64,000 nucleotides of DNA from positions 62,001 to 126,000 of the forward strand of contig CALKXJ010000003.1 of NCBI GenBank assembly GCA_938003835.1, written 5' to 3'. Below the pieces are notes generated by a model. That model had not been told where the DNA came from and searched no databases. It saw only the letters and a list, made by a program, of their open reading frames with translations. The stretch comes from an uncultured Bryobacteraceae bacterium. GTDB lineage: Bacteria; Acidobacteriota; Terriglobia; Bryobacterales; Bryobacteraceae. Shown one piece after another: positions 7,768-12,950 of this stretch; positions within the stretch are counted from its first letter, which is position 1; every line of letters begins with the position of its first letter. The position numbers and the translations under genes were made by a program.

Positions 7768-8391
7768 TCAGTCGATCTTCAGGCCGAACTCGCGCCGGAG
7801 TTCGCCGCCGGCTTCATAGACCCGGACCCAGTAACCTCCCCGCTTCAGACCCTTGTGGAGCGAGACGACCGCCTTCTCTGTCGCGGACCGCGTGGTCGTT
7901 TGCCAGACGAGCCGGCCCGAAGCATCGACAATCTCCAGGCGGTAGTCCCGGTCGACGGCAAGCCCGGTGAGGTCCACCGTCAGGAGCAGCGGCCGGTCCG
8001 CCGGCGCCGCCGCCGCGGCAGCCTGGCGAACGGTCTCGAGCTGGACGGCGAACGGCGCCTGGTTCCCTCCCTGCCACGGAAGAAGCAGAACCAGAGCGAG
8101 GGTGGCGGCTAGGGCCCCGGCCCAGACCGGCTTGGGGAGGGCCACCAGCCGCCCCAGGCGTGCCGTCCAGCTCTCCACCCCGGGCTCGGGAGCCTTCATC
8201 TCCGCGAGGGCCGCCCGCATGGCGGCCGTAAACTCGTCGAACTCCTCCACGCGCCGCCGGCAAGCCTCGCAAACGAGCAGATGTTCCTCGACCGGCGCGC
8301 TTTGCCCCTCGTCCATTCGCCCCAGGCTGTAGAGCTCCAATACTTCGTCAGTGGGGTGAATTTCTCGCGCAGTTGACATCAAGATCACCAT
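7768..8391 (-). CDS. Membrane anti-sigma factor with zinc-finger (zf-HC2) domain
   Basis: The 207-residue protein has a cytoplasmic anti-sigma domain with a His37-x3-Cys41-x2-Cys44 zinc motif (HLLVCEAC), a single membrane helix at about 88-106, and an extracytoplasmic domain of about 100 residues that looks all-beta (LLLTVDLTGLAVDRDYRLEI, GGYWVRVYEAG). The zinc anti-sigma domain of this family binds an ECF sigma factor and is released by proteolysis or conformational change. It is the last gene of the CHAT-sigma-anti-sigma operon, 54 bp after the sigma gene. A second in-frame ATG at 8379 (MSTARE) is an equally possible start. Confidence 0.88.
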   Translation of the reverse strand: MVILMSTAREIHPTDEVLELYSLGRMDEGQSAPVEEHLLVCEACRRRVEEFDEFTAAMRAALAEMKAPEPGVESWTARLGRLVALPKPVWAGALAATLALVLLLPWQGGNQAPFAVQLETVRQAAAAAAPADRPLLLTVDLTGLAVDRDYRLEIVDASGRLVWQTTTRSATEKAVVSLHKGLKRGGYWVRVYEAGGELRREFGLKID

Positions 8392-8445
8392 CTCGATCTC
8401 GTTTGCCTGCTTTGCCGGAGACGGCAGCCGGCAACCCTCATCGAT

Positions 8446-9138
8446 CTAGTCCATACGACCGGGGGAAGCTCTCAGGAAAAAGCGGCCCAAGCCGCGCCGC
8501 TCCAGCCGCTTCTTGCCCAGCTCCCCAAAACGCGCCTTCGCGCGGGATTTCAGCAGCCGGAACTGCGTTTCCGTAAGCTTCATCTCGCGGCAGATCTGTT
8601 CCTGGCTCTGTTCGTAGATGTAGAACCGCGTGAGGATTTCCCGATCACGGCTCGAGATTTCGCTCAAGACCCGCTTCATGAGCTCGATTTTCTGGCGGGC
8701 GATGGCCTGGGCCTCGGGACTGGAGCTCTCGTCGGCGACCGGAGCGGCGGCCTCGAGATCGGCCTGATTGCGCCGCCGGTTCACTGCCGCTTCGATAAAG
8801 GCCGCCACCTGCCGCTTTACGATCGTGTGGACGAACCCCATCAAGCGTTCCGGTTCGCGGAGGTTTCCCCGCCGGATGGCCTCGACGACGATGAGAAAGG
8901 TGTCGTGAACCTTGTCGTCAAGTTCTTGCGGGCCGAGCTGGCGGCAGAGCTGAAAGCGTATGCCTTTGGAAAAGATGGCGTAGAGCTCGGCCAAAGCCTG
9001 CTCTTCGCCCGCCCGGATCCGCTCGACTAGGGCCGCCCAGGCGGCATACTCGCCGCCGGAGGCCAGATTGGGGCTTCCGGCGCCGTATTGATCGCTCCCG
9101 GCGGCATCGATGCTCATTTTCTTGCTCGCGGCCGGCAT
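8446..9138 (-). CDS. ECF-type RNA polymerase sigma factor
   Basis: The 230-residue protein has sigma region 2 at about 45-125 (ALAELYAIFSKGIRFQL, DDKVHDTFLIVVEAI, MGFVHTIVKRQVAAFI) and region 4 at about 160-215 (LSEISSRDREILTRFYIY, EQICREMKLTETQFRLLKSR helix-turn-helix). Region 3 is absent, as in ECF sigmas. The ATG at 9138 lies 2 bp after the stop of the CHAT gene, so translation is probably coupled; ATG 9117 (MSIDAAG) is an alternative. The membrane anti-sigma follows. The frame stays open upstream into the CHAT gene, but that part is out of frame with CHAT and not coding. Confidence 0.9.
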   Translation of the reverse strand: MPAASKKMSIDAAGSDQYGAGSPNLASGGEYAAWAALVERIRAGEEQALAELYAIFSKGIRFQLCRQLGPQELDDKVHDTFLIVVEAIRRGNLREPERLMGFVHTIVKRQVAAFIEAAVNRRRNQADLEAAAPVADESSSPEAQAIARQKIELMKRVLSEISSRDREILTRFYIYEQSQEQICREMKLTETQFRLLKSRAKARFGELGKKRLERRGLGRFFLRASPGRMD

Positions 9139-9140
9139 AT

Positions 9141-11621
9141 CTAGTTTCGGCTCATGACGAAAAAGGCGGCCCAGTGAGCGGGCCGCGCCCGCCAGTCCTT
9201 GGAGCGGATCATTTCGATTTGCGCCCGCTGCATGGCGCGCTCCGGACGCGCCCCCAGGCCGGCCGGCCCGGCGGCGTCCAGGTGGCTGTAGAAGCGCTGG
9301 AGCAGCTCGCCGGAGTGGTCCGTGACCGGCCAGAGAGTCGCCGCCACCGATTGAGCGCCGGCGCGAAGCCAGGCGCGCGTCAGTCCCCACAGCCCTTCTC
9401 CGGGGAGCAGGGCGCCGCCCCCGGAGCGGCAGCCGCTCATCACCACCAGGGCCGGACGTGCCTCGAGCGAAGCGATTTCCGGCATGCCGATCAGCTCCGG
9501 CGTCCCGTCCGGCAGAAGGCTGAGCGCGATCATGCCGACCGCGGGATCTTCGGGCGAAGCCACCACGTGGGTGGCAAAGTGCAGCACTGCGGGCTGAAGC
9601 GACAGAGCCTGGTGGAGGGCCTGGCGGCTGGCCTGCGGCCCCGCCAGCAGGATCGGCTCCGGCGAGCCACCCCGGTAGGCCGCGGCTACGCTTGCGATTT
9701 CCCGGCCGCTGCCGACCAGCCGGGCCAGCTCCGCCACTTCCGTTTCCTTTTCCTTGCGCCGGCCGCCGCTTGCAAGCCGCAGGAAGCCGGAGGGCCTTCC
9801 CTTCCAGCGGGGATCTGCCCGATTGTAGATGGGATCTCCGACCGCAACCAGCGGGCCGCGCCAGGTCTCGCCCCGCCCGGCCAGCAGCATGGCCGCGCTC
9901 GGCACCAGACGCAGCGAGTGGCGCTCGACGAGGTATCTCGGCGCGCCGTCCGGGCCCGGCACGGCCAGCGCCGCGAACGGCAATTCGAATAACGCCCGGT
10001 CCACCAGCAGCAGCCAGTCGGACTTGCGCCGAATCTCGTCGCTCAGGCCGCCAAAAAGCAGCTTTTCGAGCTCGGCTCCGAGCAAGCCGGCCTCCGCGGC
10101 GGCGGGGTCCGCGAGCGCACGCCGGAACTCGGCGACGAGCGCAGAGAGGCGAGCGGAGGGCCCGAGTTCGTGCATTTCGAACCGCTCGCGACTGAGCGCC
10201 CACAAATAGGCGTTCCTGGCGCTCAGATGGAAGCTCAGCAGCGCCTCGGAGGGCCCCAGGGTCTGTTGGATCGATTCCGCCGTCACCGGCTGGGCGTGAC
10301 GCGCCCGTTGCGAAGCCTGAGCCCTGCTCGCCAGGCCCGCAAGCGTCTCGAACTCGTTCAATCGCAGGCGGAGCCGGCGAATCTGCTCGCGCGCCTCGGC
10401 GCCGCCAGTGCGAAACGCCAGGTTCTCGGCTTCGGTAAGAGCCCGGAGCGTCTCGAAGTACTCCCCCGGCAGGCGAGGCCGGATTCGCTCGAACTCGTCG
10501 AGCGCCTCCCGTAGCGCAATGGCGCGATTCCGCTCGGCCAGCTCGAATGCGACGCGCGCAATCCTGGAAGATCGCTTCTTGCGATACAGGCTGGCGGAGA
10601 CCTCCACCGCCAGGTCGTATACGTCTCTGAGGCCCACGCTTGCGCCGGCGCGGACCGGCTCGGCCGGCAGGTAAGCCAGGCGCAGATTGCCGATCGAGTC
10701 GATGGCCTTTTGCAAGTCCGCGAGGGCTCCCTCGAGGTCGCCCTGAGCCTCAAGGATGCGCGCGCGGGTGTAGTAAAGAGTCCAGGAGGGGGCGAGCATG
10801 GGGCCGCTTCGCGCCGCCTGGAACGCGCGGGCGATCAGCCGCTCTGCGGAGTGCGGATGGCCCTGCGCCAGGCGGAGTTCGGCAAGCAGACGGTAACAGG
10901 CCGACGGAACGGGATTGCCGCTCAGCACCCACCGCCGGTAGGCGCCTTGCGCAGCCCGCTCGGCGTCGGCGAGGGCACCGGCGCGAAGCAGTATCACGGC
11001 GTACCTCTCCAGCACATGCGCGGACAGGGGGACATCTCCGCGCTGCTCGGACTCCGCGAGGGCCTCCTCGAACAGGCGCGAAGCCTCCGTGAGGTCTCCC
11101 TGCTCGAAGCGCAGTTCGGCCGCCAAGGGAAGTGCCTCGGGGGGGGTGCCGGGCTTGCCGGCTGCCAGAGCCCGCCGGAGTTCCGTCTCCGCTTCCCCCA
11201 AAGCGCCCTGCACGCGATACAGCCAGGCAAGGTTGACTGCCAGCACCGTAGCGAGCTCCTTGTCACCCGTCGCCGCTGCCAGCCGCCGGGCCTCGAGGTA
11301 TGCTTCCATGGCTTGCGCGTATTGGTAGTGCCCAATGCGAGCATTAGCGAGGTTGACCAGGAACCGGGCGGCAGCGCGCTGATCGGCCGCCTCCAGGGCC
11401 TGCCGGTAGCCTGCCTGGAAGCGCTCCGCTGCCTCGCGATAAAGCCCTTGGCTTGCCAGGCGCCGGCCCTCGACAAGCGTGGACTTAAAGGATTGCCCCG
11501 CTCGCGCCCGTTTCGCAGTCGCGGAAGACCCTTCGGCACGGCTGCTTGGCGAGACGTGCCCGACCGATCCAACCGTAGGAAGGACCAGCAGGAAGAGAAG
11601 CAGCCTGCTCAGAGCCTGCAT
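9141..11621 (-). CDS. TPR-CHAT caspase-like peptidase
   Basis: The 826-residue protein begins with a hydrophobic N-terminus (about 4-20, LSRLLLFLLVLPTVGSVG) that looks like a signal peptide or anchor. A long run of tetratricopeptide helices follows (about 45-335; for example GLYREAAERFQAGYRQAL, GALADAERAAQGAYRRW, GDLEGALADLQKAI). The C-terminal CHAT domain (about 520-826) retains both catalytic residues: His685 in VLHFATH and Cys731 in VVMSGCRSG, followed by GEGLWGLTRAWLRAGAQSV. CHAT proteins are separase/caspase-related cysteine peptidases or scaffolds. This gene heads a leftward operon with an ECF sigma and its anti-sigma, which suggests a role in that signalling pathway. Confidence 0.9.
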   Translation of the reverse strand: MQALSRLLLFLLVLPTVGSVGHVSPSSRAEGSSATAKRARAGQSFKSTLVEGRRLASQGLYREAAERFQAGYRQALEAADQRAAARFLVNLANARIGHYQYAQAMEAYLEARRLAAATGDKELATVLAVNLAWLYRVQGALGEAETELRRALAAGKPGTPPEALPLAAELRFEQGDLTEASRLFEEALAESEQRGDVPLSAHVLERYAVILLRAGALADAERAAQGAYRRWVLSGNPVPSACYRLLAELRLAQGHPHSAERLIARAFQAARSGPMLAPSWTLYYTRARILEAQGDLEGALADLQKAIDSIGNLRLAYLPAEPVRAGASVGLRDVYDLAVEVSASLYRKKRSSRIARVAFELAERNRAIALREALDEFERIRPRLPGEYFETLRALTEAENLAFRTGGAEAREQIRRLRLRLNEFETLAGLASRAQASQRARHAQPVTAESIQQTLGPSEALLSFHLSARNAYLWALSRERFEMHELGPSARLSALVAEFRRALADPAAAEAGLLGAELEKLLFGGLSDEIRRKSDWLLLVDRALFELPFAALAVPGPDGAPRYLVERHSLRLVPSAAMLLAGRGETWRGPLVAVGDPIYNRADPRWKGRPSGFLRLASGGRRKEKETEVAELARLVGSGREIASVAAAYRGGSPEPILLAGPQASRQALHQALSLQPAVLHFATHVVASPEDPAVGMIALSLLPDGTPELIGMPEIASLEARPALVVMSGCRSGGGALLPGEGLWGLTRAWLRAGAQSVAATLWPVTDHSGELLQRFYSHLDAAGPAGLGARPERAMQRAQIEMIRSKDWRARPAHWAAFFVMSRN

Positions 11622-11675: not shown

Positions 11676-11712
11676 TTCTTAGGGGTACTCGCTGCGGTAG
11701 TACCCCTAAGAA
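11676..11712. repeat. 14-bp perfect inverted repeat (hairpin)
   Basis: TTCTTAGGGGTACT at 11676-11689 is repeated as its exact reverse complement at 11699-11712, with a 9-nt loop. No T-run follows on either side, so it does not look like an intrinsic terminator. It could be an operator, a transcript-stabilising hairpin or the relic of a small palindromic mobile element. Confidence 0.8.
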
Positions 11713-11821
11713 TCATACCAGACTTTGCCGTGTGTATGGCATCCCCCGGCTGGGGGTTAATGGTGAGCTTCCGTGCGCCTCTCGATCGCAACGAAGGATG
11801 AGATCTTCACCACAGAGGAAT

Positions 11822-11833
11822 ATCTGGCCAGAT
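11822..11833. repeat. 12-bp palindrome ATCTGGCCAGAT
   Basis: A perfect dyad 256 bp before the universal stress gene, immediately before the tandem repeat. It could bind a dimeric regulator; no family is implied by the sequence. Confidence 0.45.
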
Positions 11834-11837
11834 CACG

Positions 11838-11889
11838 ATCGGGTCCCTATCCATGATCTCCTCATCGGATCCCTGTCCATGATCTCCTT
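11838..11889. repeat. Two tandem 26-bp units
   Basis: Units 11838-11863 and 11864-11889 are directly adjacent and agree at 23 of 26 positions; both contain TCCATGATCTCCT. Only two copies are seen and there is no spacer, so this is not a CRISPR array. Confidence 0.8.
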
Positions 11890-12003: not shown

Positions 12004-12077
12004 CGGTGGTGACCCGCCACGCGGCGCCGCGCGTCACGCGCCGGCTTGAAGTCGCATCTAAGGCTTGTGAGCCTGCC

Positions 12078-12950
12078 ATGAGCGCCTCTCCGCTTCCGCG
12101 TCATATCCTTTGCGCCGTCGATTTCAGCGAGATCTCCGCCCACGCTTTGGCTTATGCCGATGCGATCGCCCGGGGTGCGGGCGCCGATCTCACCGCCCTA
12201 TACGCCGAAACGGTGCCGATGCCTCCCTATTTCACCGAGCGCCAGATCGATGAACTCCGCCGGCAGTATCGCGAAAGCCTGGCCGAGGCCGAACGGAGCC
12301 TCCGGCGGTTCCTCGAAGCGAGCCTGGGTCCGGCCTCCGGGCGGATCCGCACCCGTGTGGTGGAAGCTGCGCCTGTGGAGGGGATTCTCGAAACCGCTTC
12401 GGCGCTGAGCGCCGACTGGATCGCTTTGGGCACCCACGGGCGCACCGGCATCAACCGCTGGTTACTCGGTTCGGTGGCCGAACGCGTGCTTCGGGCCAGC
12501 CGCCTGCCCGTGTTAACGGCACGAGGCCCGGCGCAACCCGGCCCGGTCGCCATCCGGCGCATCCTGGTGCCGGTGAACGACTCCGAGCTGGCGCGGCGCT
12601 CGCTCGAGCTGGCCGCCCTACTCGCCAAGACGCTCGGCGCGGAGCTGACAGCCATGCATGTCCGCGAAGCGGGCGCCCAACACCGGATTTCCGATCTCTG
12701 CGCCTGGATCCCGGCGGAGCAGCGCGCGCTGTGCCAACTTCGCGAACTGGAGCGGGAAGGCGAGGCGGCGGAAGAAATCCTCAAGGTCGCTCGCGAGACG
12801 TCCTGTGACCTGCTGGTAGTCGGGGCGCGCCACCGCGCGTTTTTCGACAGCACGGTGATTGGCACCACCACGGTGCGCGTCGTGCGGCACGCTCCCTGCC
12901 CGGTCCTCACGGTGATGGAAGCTGCCGGCGCGGCTCAAAGCGGCTCCTGA
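12078..12950 (+). CDS. Universal stress protein with two tandem UspA domains
   Basis: The 290-residue protein contains two UspA domains. The first (about 8-150) starts HILCAVDFSEISAHAL and keeps the ATP-binding signature GTHGRTGINRWLLGSVAERV. The second (about 160-282) starts IRRILVPVNDSELARRSLELA but its nucleotide loop is degenerate (GARHRAFFDSTVIGTTTVRV). Tandem Usp proteins typically bind ATP and help survival under starvation, hypoxia or envelope stress. The upstream frame is open, but ATG 12078 matches the family start. The stop overlaps the end of a small convergent membrane-protein gene. Confidence 0.9.
   Translation: MSASPLPRHILCAVDFSEISAHALAYADAIARGAGADLTALYAETVPMPPYFTERQIDELRRQYRESLAEAERSLRRFLEASLGPASGRIRTRVVEAAPVEGILETASALSADWIALGTHGRTGINRWLLGSVAERVLRASRLPVLTARGPAQPGPVAIRRILVPVNDSELARRSLELAALLAKTLGAELTAMHVREAGAQHRISDLCAWIPAEQRALCQLRELEREGEAAEEILKVARETSCDLLVVGARHRAFFDSTVIGTTTVRVVRHAPCPVLTVMEAAGAAQSGS

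Follow-up and report, generated by a model that had tools for sequence, protein, structure and literature searches.

A 64-kb stretch of the genome of an uncultured Bryobacteraceae bacterium (contig CALKXJ010000003.1, positions 62,001 to 126,000; hereafter the window) contains an operon in which the gene of a TPR-CHAT protease is followed by the genes of an extracytoplasmic function (ECF) sigma factor and a zinc anti-sigma factor. The locus raises the question whether, and through which part of the anti-sigma factor, a caspase-like protease may control a sigma factor outside CRISPR. An earlier reading of the sequence (hereafter the original prediction) had proposed that CHAT cuts the outer domain of the anti-sigma factor. 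We find it reasonably probable that the operon encodes a CRISPR-independent protease-to-sigma switch, in which an exported CHAT protein acts on this outer domain, most likely cuts it at Arg122, and thereby frees the sigma factor. What is directly established is that the genes exist and are co-conserved, that the catalytic dyad is intact, and that absence of CHAT correlates with absence of the outer domain.

According to the scheme that we favor, CHAT would be exported to the periplasm, as its N-terminus suggests; the zinc domain of the anti-sigma factor would hold the ECF sigma factor in the cytoplasm, and its immunoglobulin (Ig)-like domain would be displayed outside. On activation, CHAT would act on the outer domain, most likely cutting the Arg122 loop just outside the membrane; ordinary intramembrane proteolysis would next dispose of the remaining stump and set the sigma factor free. 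Export, cleavage, the cleavage site, the activating sign and the stimulus are the parts of this scheme that we infer.

The operon and its conservation

The predicted genes and their parts are as follows.

9141 to 11621, minus strand: TPR-CHAT protease gene, 826 aa, with an export-like N-terminal segment (open reading frame, Pfam and structure model)
10701 to 11480, minus strand: TPR superhelix, residues 48-307 (Pfam TPR_MalT, E 3e-19)
9153 to 10076, minus strand: CHAT caspase-like domain, residues 516-823 (Pfam CHAT, E 5.5e-48)
9567 to 9569, minus strand: codon of the catalytic His685 (invariant in 48/48)
9429 to 9431, minus strand: codon of the catalytic Cys731 (invariant in 48/48)
8446 to 9138, minus strand: ECF sigma factor gene, 230 aa (NCBIfam TIGR02937)
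7768 to 8391, minus strand: single-pass zinc anti-sigma factor gene, 207 aa (motif, profile matches below cut-off, model)
8260 to 8283, minus strand: HxxxCxxC zinc motif, anti-sigma residues 37-44 (invariant in 36/36)
8083 to 8130, minus strand: predicted transmembrane helix, anti-sigma residues 88-103 (structure model)
7771 to 8058, minus strand: outer beta-sandwich domain, anti-sigma residues 112-207 (model; missing in 13 of the 15 scored CHAT-less loci with a zinc domain)
8026 to 8028, minus strand: codon of Arg122, a conserved loop arginine and candidate cleavage site (alignment and model)

The CHAT gene is followed after 2 bp by the sigma gene and, after a further 54 bp, by the anti-sigma gene. 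The open reading frames (ORFs), profile matches and structure model confirm the three-gene operon of the original prediction, and the spacings and the intact His685 and Cys731 are as it had claimed. The CHAT domain scored 164.3 bits in Pfam (cut-off 24) and was also found in 32/32 members of a set of CHAT relatives (A3) that share 25-42% with the window protein. The CHAT structure model (predicted local distance difference test score, pLDDT, 86.8; predicted template modelling score, pTM, 0.86) resembles Csx29, DdvA, separase and numerous TPR proteins, while a PADLOC run gave no CHAT match and a phmmer search of the Protein Data Bank (PDB) with the CHAT domain alone returned none. The sigma factor reached 47.8 bits with TIGR02937 (cut-off 42.9), in line with the ECF model, and its Pfam region 2 and region 4 matches both lay under their cut-offs. 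For the anti-sigma factor, zf-HC2 scored 19.8 bits (cut-off 22.2) and the Pfam and NCBIfam anti-sigma models matched below cut-off only; the HxxxCxxC residues are unchanged in 36/36 aligned rows. Its structure model (mean pLDDT 86.7, pTM 0.52) comprises N-terminal helices, one transmembrane-like helix and, at residues 114-206, the outer beta sandwich of about 100 residues that had been anticipated, for which Foldseek retrieved generic Ig-like and cupredoxin folds and nothing more specific. With the motif, a modelled helical domain and one predicted membrane span, the protein has the features of a class I zinc anti-sigma factor.

His685 and Cys731 are invariant in 48/48 rows (the window plus 47 relatives, of which one is incomplete); since this holds although the A3 relatives are so divergent, we count it in favor of the protease-to-sigma switch. 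The N-terminus of the window protein is hydrophobic, as originally noted, and a hydrophobic stretch lies inside the first 57 residues of 47/47 complete orthologues, eight of which have another further in; starts were taken as the first start codon per frame, so that some N-termini are possibly too long. By our reading, a few orthologues carry lipoprotein-like signals. Hence, CHAT is probably exported to the periplasm, in which case the objection that it might be cytoplasmic, foreseen in the original prediction, would not apply.

In a survey of 250 genomes of the class, 89 had some CHAT match at 1e-20, and every match better than 1e-42 fell within the window's own family. Such close CHAT proteins occur at 47 loci (L033-L079), and the sigma gene directly follows CHAT in all 46 that can be evaluated, the contig of L071 ending in sigma; a matching anti-sigma gene comes next in 35, none is present in the operon in 10, and two are not judgeable. 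Of 237 genomes of the family, 219 encode the sigma factor (E 1e-45) and 215 give a CHAT match (E 1e-60, paralogues included), and all 40 sigma matches obtained at 1e-50 in a class sample of 200 genomes lay within the family. When relatives were searched by sigma alone, CHAT adjoined it in 74 of the best 80 of 219. The expected co-occurrence is therefore borne out for the CHAT-sigma pair, and an absence of co-conservation cannot be held against the switch. Three records that bear the names Acidimicrobiia, Bordetella parapertussis and Nevskia soli (L096, L140, L161) also contain the operon of this acidobacterial family and are probably mislabelled genome bins.

CHAT, the outer domain and Arg122

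We scored 168 sigma loci, including loci from genomes with weak or no CHAT, with profiles for CHAT, sigma, the zinc domain and the outer domain. Removal of 34 rows, 29 with identical sigmas and five with a sigma below 250 bits, left 134 distinct loci; the five were L071 (CHAT present), L209, L210 and L211 (distant sigmas, CHAT and anti-sigma both not found) and L213 (CHAT present, no operonic anti-sigma). Among these 134, the outer domain accompanies CHAT at 95 loci and a zinc-only anti-sigma at none, while CHAT-less loci have a zinc-only protein in 13 cases and the outer domain in two (Fisher's exact test on these four cells, 4e-15, with rows related by descent). The other loci comprise 15 with CHAT and no operonic anti-sigma, two with CHAT and an unknown anti-sigma state, three with neither, three without CHAT and with an unknown state, and one with an outer domain and CHAT unknown. 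L200 and L208 were set to unknown manually; the 63-aa, stop-terminated zinc-only ORF of L200 would join the CHAT-less zinc-only group. L169 was scored as having the outer domain by profile match although its first ORF has only 139 aa. The 13 CHAT-less zinc-only loci are spread over seven genera; their proteins measure 73 to 135 aa (the zinc-only match of L179 contains stop codons and gave no ORF), L174 showing a weak hydrophobic tail and L194 a transmembrane segment. On the sigma tree, the CHAT-less zinc-only label needs eight changes on the best tree and at least five by starred branches, and the CHAT state changes 12 times; many forks are poorly supported (56/131 drawn open). Where the protease is missing, the outer domain is usually missing as well, suggesting that CHAT operates the switch by way of this domain.

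We followed the exceptions to genome level. Of the 15 loci with CHAT and no operonic anti-sigma, 13 were checked (L122 and L160 were left out), and in 13/13 genomes an orthologous anti-sigma of full length is encoded outside the operon (E 1.1e-41 to 2.5e-53, next-best matches 4e-16 or weaker); such loci are therefore ruled out as a refutation. All seven of these anti-sigmas that were retrieved keep the outer domain. The two CHAT-less loci with an outer domain, judged from genome searches, fit the rule: in the genome of L167 (G342:C99 by coordinates) a complete CHAT lies on a different contig (E 1e-217), and that of L199 (G423) has no CHAT better than 3e-54, in a metagenome-assembled genome (MAG) of about 1040 contigs where CHAT could be missed, but its outer domain lacks Arg122 (see below). 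Among CHAT-less loci with no or unknown anti-sigma, genomes G250 and G337 carry zinc-only matches elsewhere, which leaves L197, L208 and L212. In 24 genomes searched for CHAT, seven had no match at 1e-30 and the rest, apart from G342 and G401, had CHAT proteins at 5.5e-108 or weaker, which we took for paralogues because of their scores and frame lengths; complete orthologues mostly match at about 1e-170 to 1e-285. Finally, L180 (3128-4549, plus strand) encodes a 473-aa CHAT protein without TPRs that retains the hydrophobic N-terminus and the dyad, and its anti-sigma partner has both the outer domain and the arginine.

A candidate cleavage site emerged from the alignment of 105 outer domains (98 scored rows and the seven encoded elsewhere). 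The residue at position 122 is Arg in 103/105, and as L049 carries the Arg ahead of a repeat-rich insertion, it is present in 104/105. In L049 the insertion, of TAKE type, follows Arg122-Gly, as if the loop tolerated flexible linkers. The sole outer domain without Arg122 is that of L199, from the genome without an orthologous CHAT; it has Thr there (second alignment) and keeps Arg190 and Glu201. Arg122 lies in the loop after the first beta strand of the anti-sigma model, the following residue is Gly in 82/105, and six of seven paralogous anti-sigmas were aligned, with Arg at position 122 in five. Arg122 may be the scissile residue. Taken together, the correlated absence, the retention of the domain by anti-sigmas encoded elsewhere, and the lack of Arg122 in L199 make a functional link between CHAT and the outer domain well supported at the level of comparative sequence; of the original claim that CHAT cuts this domain, the link has stood, and cutting is its probable explanation.

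Several observations weigh against this interpretation. The correlated absence indicates a functional link, not proteolysis, and the anti-sigmas encoded elsewhere were assigned to the operon sigma by similarity alone. An independent-pairs sign test restricted to starred branches had only three pairs and was not significant (median p 0.25; on average 2.5 pairs concordant, 0 discordant and 0.5 without difference); ignoring branch support gives nine pairs on the best tree. The Arg122 contrast comes from one genome, the fragmented MAG of L199, whose outer domain moreover has an Arg four residues earlier, in the strand. By our count, the equivalent of separase Asp2151 is CHAT residue 772, and it is acidic in 15/48 only, so that the CHAT pocket does not predict Arg specificity; Asp768 is invariant in 48/48. 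In separase, it is Asp2151 that reads the P1 arginine (PMC9729208). For Csx29, the cut was placed after Leu407 in one paper and between residues 427 and 429 in another, and no Arg is reported in the excerpts.

An alternative is that CHAT controls the sigma factor through the outer domain without cutting it, binding as a sensor subunit in a two-gene form of the anti-sigma DdvA (see below), with the protease directed at something else or at itself. In DdvA the TPR-CHAT fold is part of the anti-sigma protein, an arrangement that does not require cleavage in trans; the correlated absence is as compatible with binding as with cutting, and the separase-like Arg pocket is not conserved by our count. 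We nevertheless regard this alternative as rather unlikely, given that the dyad is invariant in 48/48 and retained even in the TPR-less L180, and that Arg122 falls in a loop and not inside a strand of the model.

Upstream elements, paralogues and other alternatives

Four further features lie upstream of CHAT.

11807 to 11854, minus strand: 15-codon tiny ORF, MDRDPIVIWPDIPLW, with a Shine-Dalgarno-like sequence (conservation ahead of CHAT in relatives)
11833 to 11880, minus strand: partial tandem duplicate of the start of the tiny ORF, reading MDRDP and then diverging (sequence reading)
11712 to 11722, minus strand: extended -10 promoter-like element, TCTGGTATGAT (motif count in relatives)
11677 to 11711, minus strand: palindrome of 35 bp with 13-bp arms, directly after the -10 element (palindrome scoring)

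They were analyzed in 90 loci that have CHAT and at least 420 bp in front of it. In 65/90 (62 in a strict form), CHAT is preceded by a short ORF of 8-26 codons, typically M..DPIIII.PP..W, in which a P-aliphatic-aliphatic or four-aliphatic run comes early, compared with a mean of 5.0 and a maximum of 10 in shuffled sequences (strict 2.2, maximum 7) and with 4 and 2 on the opposite strand; 45 of the upstream short ORFs have a Shine-Dalgarno-like sequence. No DPII-type ORF was found upstream of sigma in 18 loci without adjacent CHAT, three of which (L175, L183, L201) have other hydrophobic short ORFs. In a search of three genomes with a DPI codon pattern, the nine matches were two short ORFs before CHAT, six positions in long frames and one 31-codon frame without the remaining motif; the tiny ORF of the window is missed by this pattern owing to its GTG codon for Val. 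CHAT and sigma lie apart in G342; there, CHAT (L226) is preceded by the short ORF together with a -10-like element and a palindrome, while the sigma locus L167 lacks the short ORF yet has TCTGGTATGAT, as does L212; L199 has a related form. Hence, the ORF goes with CHAT, and the -10 element does not discriminate between the two genes.

A YCTGRTANNNT-like element occurs in 58/90 upstream regions (shuffles: mean 2.0, maximum 5), and a strong palindrome (score at least 9) follows its TCTG/CCTG form in 35/55, as against 0/275 shuffles; the palindrome arms vary between species yet remain complementary. No conserved ECF-type -35 was seen in the 55 aligned promoters. As TCTGRTATGAT occurs only twice in the window's genome, once at the operon, no regulon showed. 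The palindrome was rejected as an intrinsic terminator, since no T run follows it and it is missing from the output of a terminator scan. It abuts the -10 element directly, which makes a hairpin in the 5' end of the mRNA doubtful; a protein operator is as likely, and Rfam gave a single sub-threshold match. Across the intergenic region from the operon lies a divergent universal stress protein (Usp) gene with two Usp stretches (12006-12950).

Possibly, the product of the short ORF is a hydrophobic peptide whose binding to the TPRs of CHAT either licenses or inhibits the protease. CHAT would then be a peptide-gated caspase-like protease that opens an ECF switch, with RRNPP-like peptide sensing joined to separase-like proteolysis. 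The excess of the ORF over shuffled sequences, the lack of DPII-type ORFs at the 18 sigma loci and its place beside CHAT in G342 speak for this idea; against it, the ORF has no export signal, and its successive Ile codons could instead act as a leader in transcription or translation. Rap and NprR, RRNPP receptors whose TPR fold binds a short secreted peptide, can be superposed on the TPR part of the window CHAT at Z about 21, but unrelated TPR proteins superpose equally well. We hold the idea to be speculative and unlikely.

Paralogous loci of the same family extend the comparison. In nine of them (L214-L222), chosen for the closeness of a distant anti-sigma match to the CHAT match, sigma, anti-sigma and CHAT occur together in 9/9, which we count in favor of the switch, in this order in seven and with CHAT first in two (L217, L218); the outer-domain profile matches five of the nine, weakly, and the extramembrane part of the L220 anti-sigma resembles TPRs. 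No sigma or anti-sigma match was obtained at three loci chosen solely for their CHAT (L223-L225), and two (L080, L090) of 14 further CHAT loci (L080-L093) have an anti-sigma-like gene immediately upstream of CHAT. The window's genome encodes a second CHAT protein (L002/L093, G000:C27; 649-aa frame, Pfam E 3e-24), and no sigma, anti-sigma or CHAT profile matched in the 16 kb around it.

Gene order and promoter bear on the notion that CHAT is an output gene of the sigma factor, i.e., an exported stress protease in an autoregulated operon whose activity or products are sensed by the outer domain as feedback. CHAT is the first gene of the operon in the window, as it is in L217 and L218, and loss of the output could relax selection on a sensor domain; however, the upstream element resembles a housekeeping extended -10 without a conserved ECF-type -35, and CHAT comes after the sigma pair in 7/9 paralogous loci. 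This makes an output role distinctly improbable. More improbable still is that CHAT matures or polices the anti-sigma factor, so that cutting keeps the sigma factor off and not on: whether the effect is activating or inhibiting cannot be read from the comparison of genomes, but lineages without CHAT retain a zinc-domain protein that should still bind sigma, and CHAT is therefore not required to make the inhibitor. Least credible, and close to dismissible, is the piecemeal decay of a single ancestral operon with losses coinciding by chance and lineage, which the few independent events on well-supported branches and the non-significant sign test there would allow, but which sits badly with a label needing eight changes on the best tree (at least five by starred branches), a zinc-only anti-sigma in 0/95 CHAT loci with either form, and genes located elsewhere that still follow the rule.

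Relation to known sigma switches

The proposed switch, in which CHAT cuts the outer domain and frees the sigma factor, recalls the Csx29-Csx30-CASP-sigma system of type III-E CRISPR (Craspase), where Csx29, a TPR-CHAT protease with a His/Cys dyad, cuts the inhibitor that holds an ECF sigma factor (PMC10028731). Csx29 is the best structural match of the CHAT model by VIA-align (Z 25.0, 467 residues aligned, root-mean-square deviation, rmsd, 10.6), and in both systems such a protease stands beside an ECF sigma and its inhibitor. Unlike Csx29, the window protein looks exported, and its partner is, by domain features, a zinc anti-sigma factor with one membrane span and not Csx30. Type III-E CASP loci are further characterized by a Cas7-11/gRAMP gene and a CRISPR array. 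No direct repeat of at least 23 bp within 120 bp, and hence no CRISPR-like array, was found across the window, and no cas gene was present among the six flanking ORFs (peptidase S15, aminopeptidase, one without a Pfam match, Usp, 3-keto-disaccharide hydrolase and beta-eliminating lyase), the part of the genome that was searched for cas genes; within this range, the CRISPR-independence assumed in the original prediction is upheld.

The closest relative is DdvA (PDB 8rot and 8rw5, Myxococcus xanthus naming), labelled a transmembrane anti-sigma in the titles of these entries, which contains a TPR-CHAT fold of the same architecture inside the anti-sigma chain. DdvA residues 397-991 align with the CHAT model at Z 20.9 (573 residues, rmsd 6.3), and the two sequences match at E 1e-11 with His and Cys aligned. 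DdvA is one chain of 991 residues, whereas the window has separate protease and anti-sigma genes, the latter with its own beta domain. In M. xanthus, DdvS becomes active upon DdvA inactivation (PMC4374960), and no paper on the DdvA structure was found in the open-licence PMC literature. CHAT genes also lie next to ECF sigmas in ECF54, where CHAT, subtilase or carboxypeptidase genes occur in the sigma context and proteolytic control was proposed for sigmas without an anti-sigma (PMC8999054); the window is set apart from that description by a membrane anti-sigma whose outer domain tracks CHAT. A further three-part set of protease, anti-sigma and ECF sigma is the CalpL-CalpT-CalpS cascade of type III CRISPR (PMC11417357), whose CalpL is a Lon-type protease switched on by cyclic oligoadenylate, in contrast to the CHAT protease of the window. 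RseA-DegS and RsiW likewise involve a membrane anti-sigma controlling an ECF sigma. DegS is a PDZ serine protease, while the candidate protease of the window is caspase/separase-like. In these systems, cutting of the membrane anti-sigma by a protease leads to release of the ECF sigma (PMC10028731).

The proposed switch would work like the Csx29-Csx30-sigma and RseA-type switches and is a member of neither. In the excerpts of open-licence PMC literature, we found no CHAT-sigma-anti-sigma operon of this kind; to the original prediction we add the joint absence of CHAT and the outer domain, an account of most exceptions, the conserved Arg122, the relationship to DdvA as the closest system, and the short ORF and palindrome ahead of CHAT. 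If the proposal is true, caspase/separase-like CHAT proteases would also be first-step proteases of membrane sigma switches, beyond CRISPR or death effectors, and a wider, chromosomal class of switches would include Csx29-Csx30-sigma as one of its branches. Two genes in the operon and a single chain in DdvA suggest how the components of such switches separate or become fused, and the short ORF is a concrete candidate for the missing signal. With a predicted protease, a substrate, the candidate residue Arg122 and C731A as negative control, the function of CHAT proteins in soil bacteria would then be directly testable.

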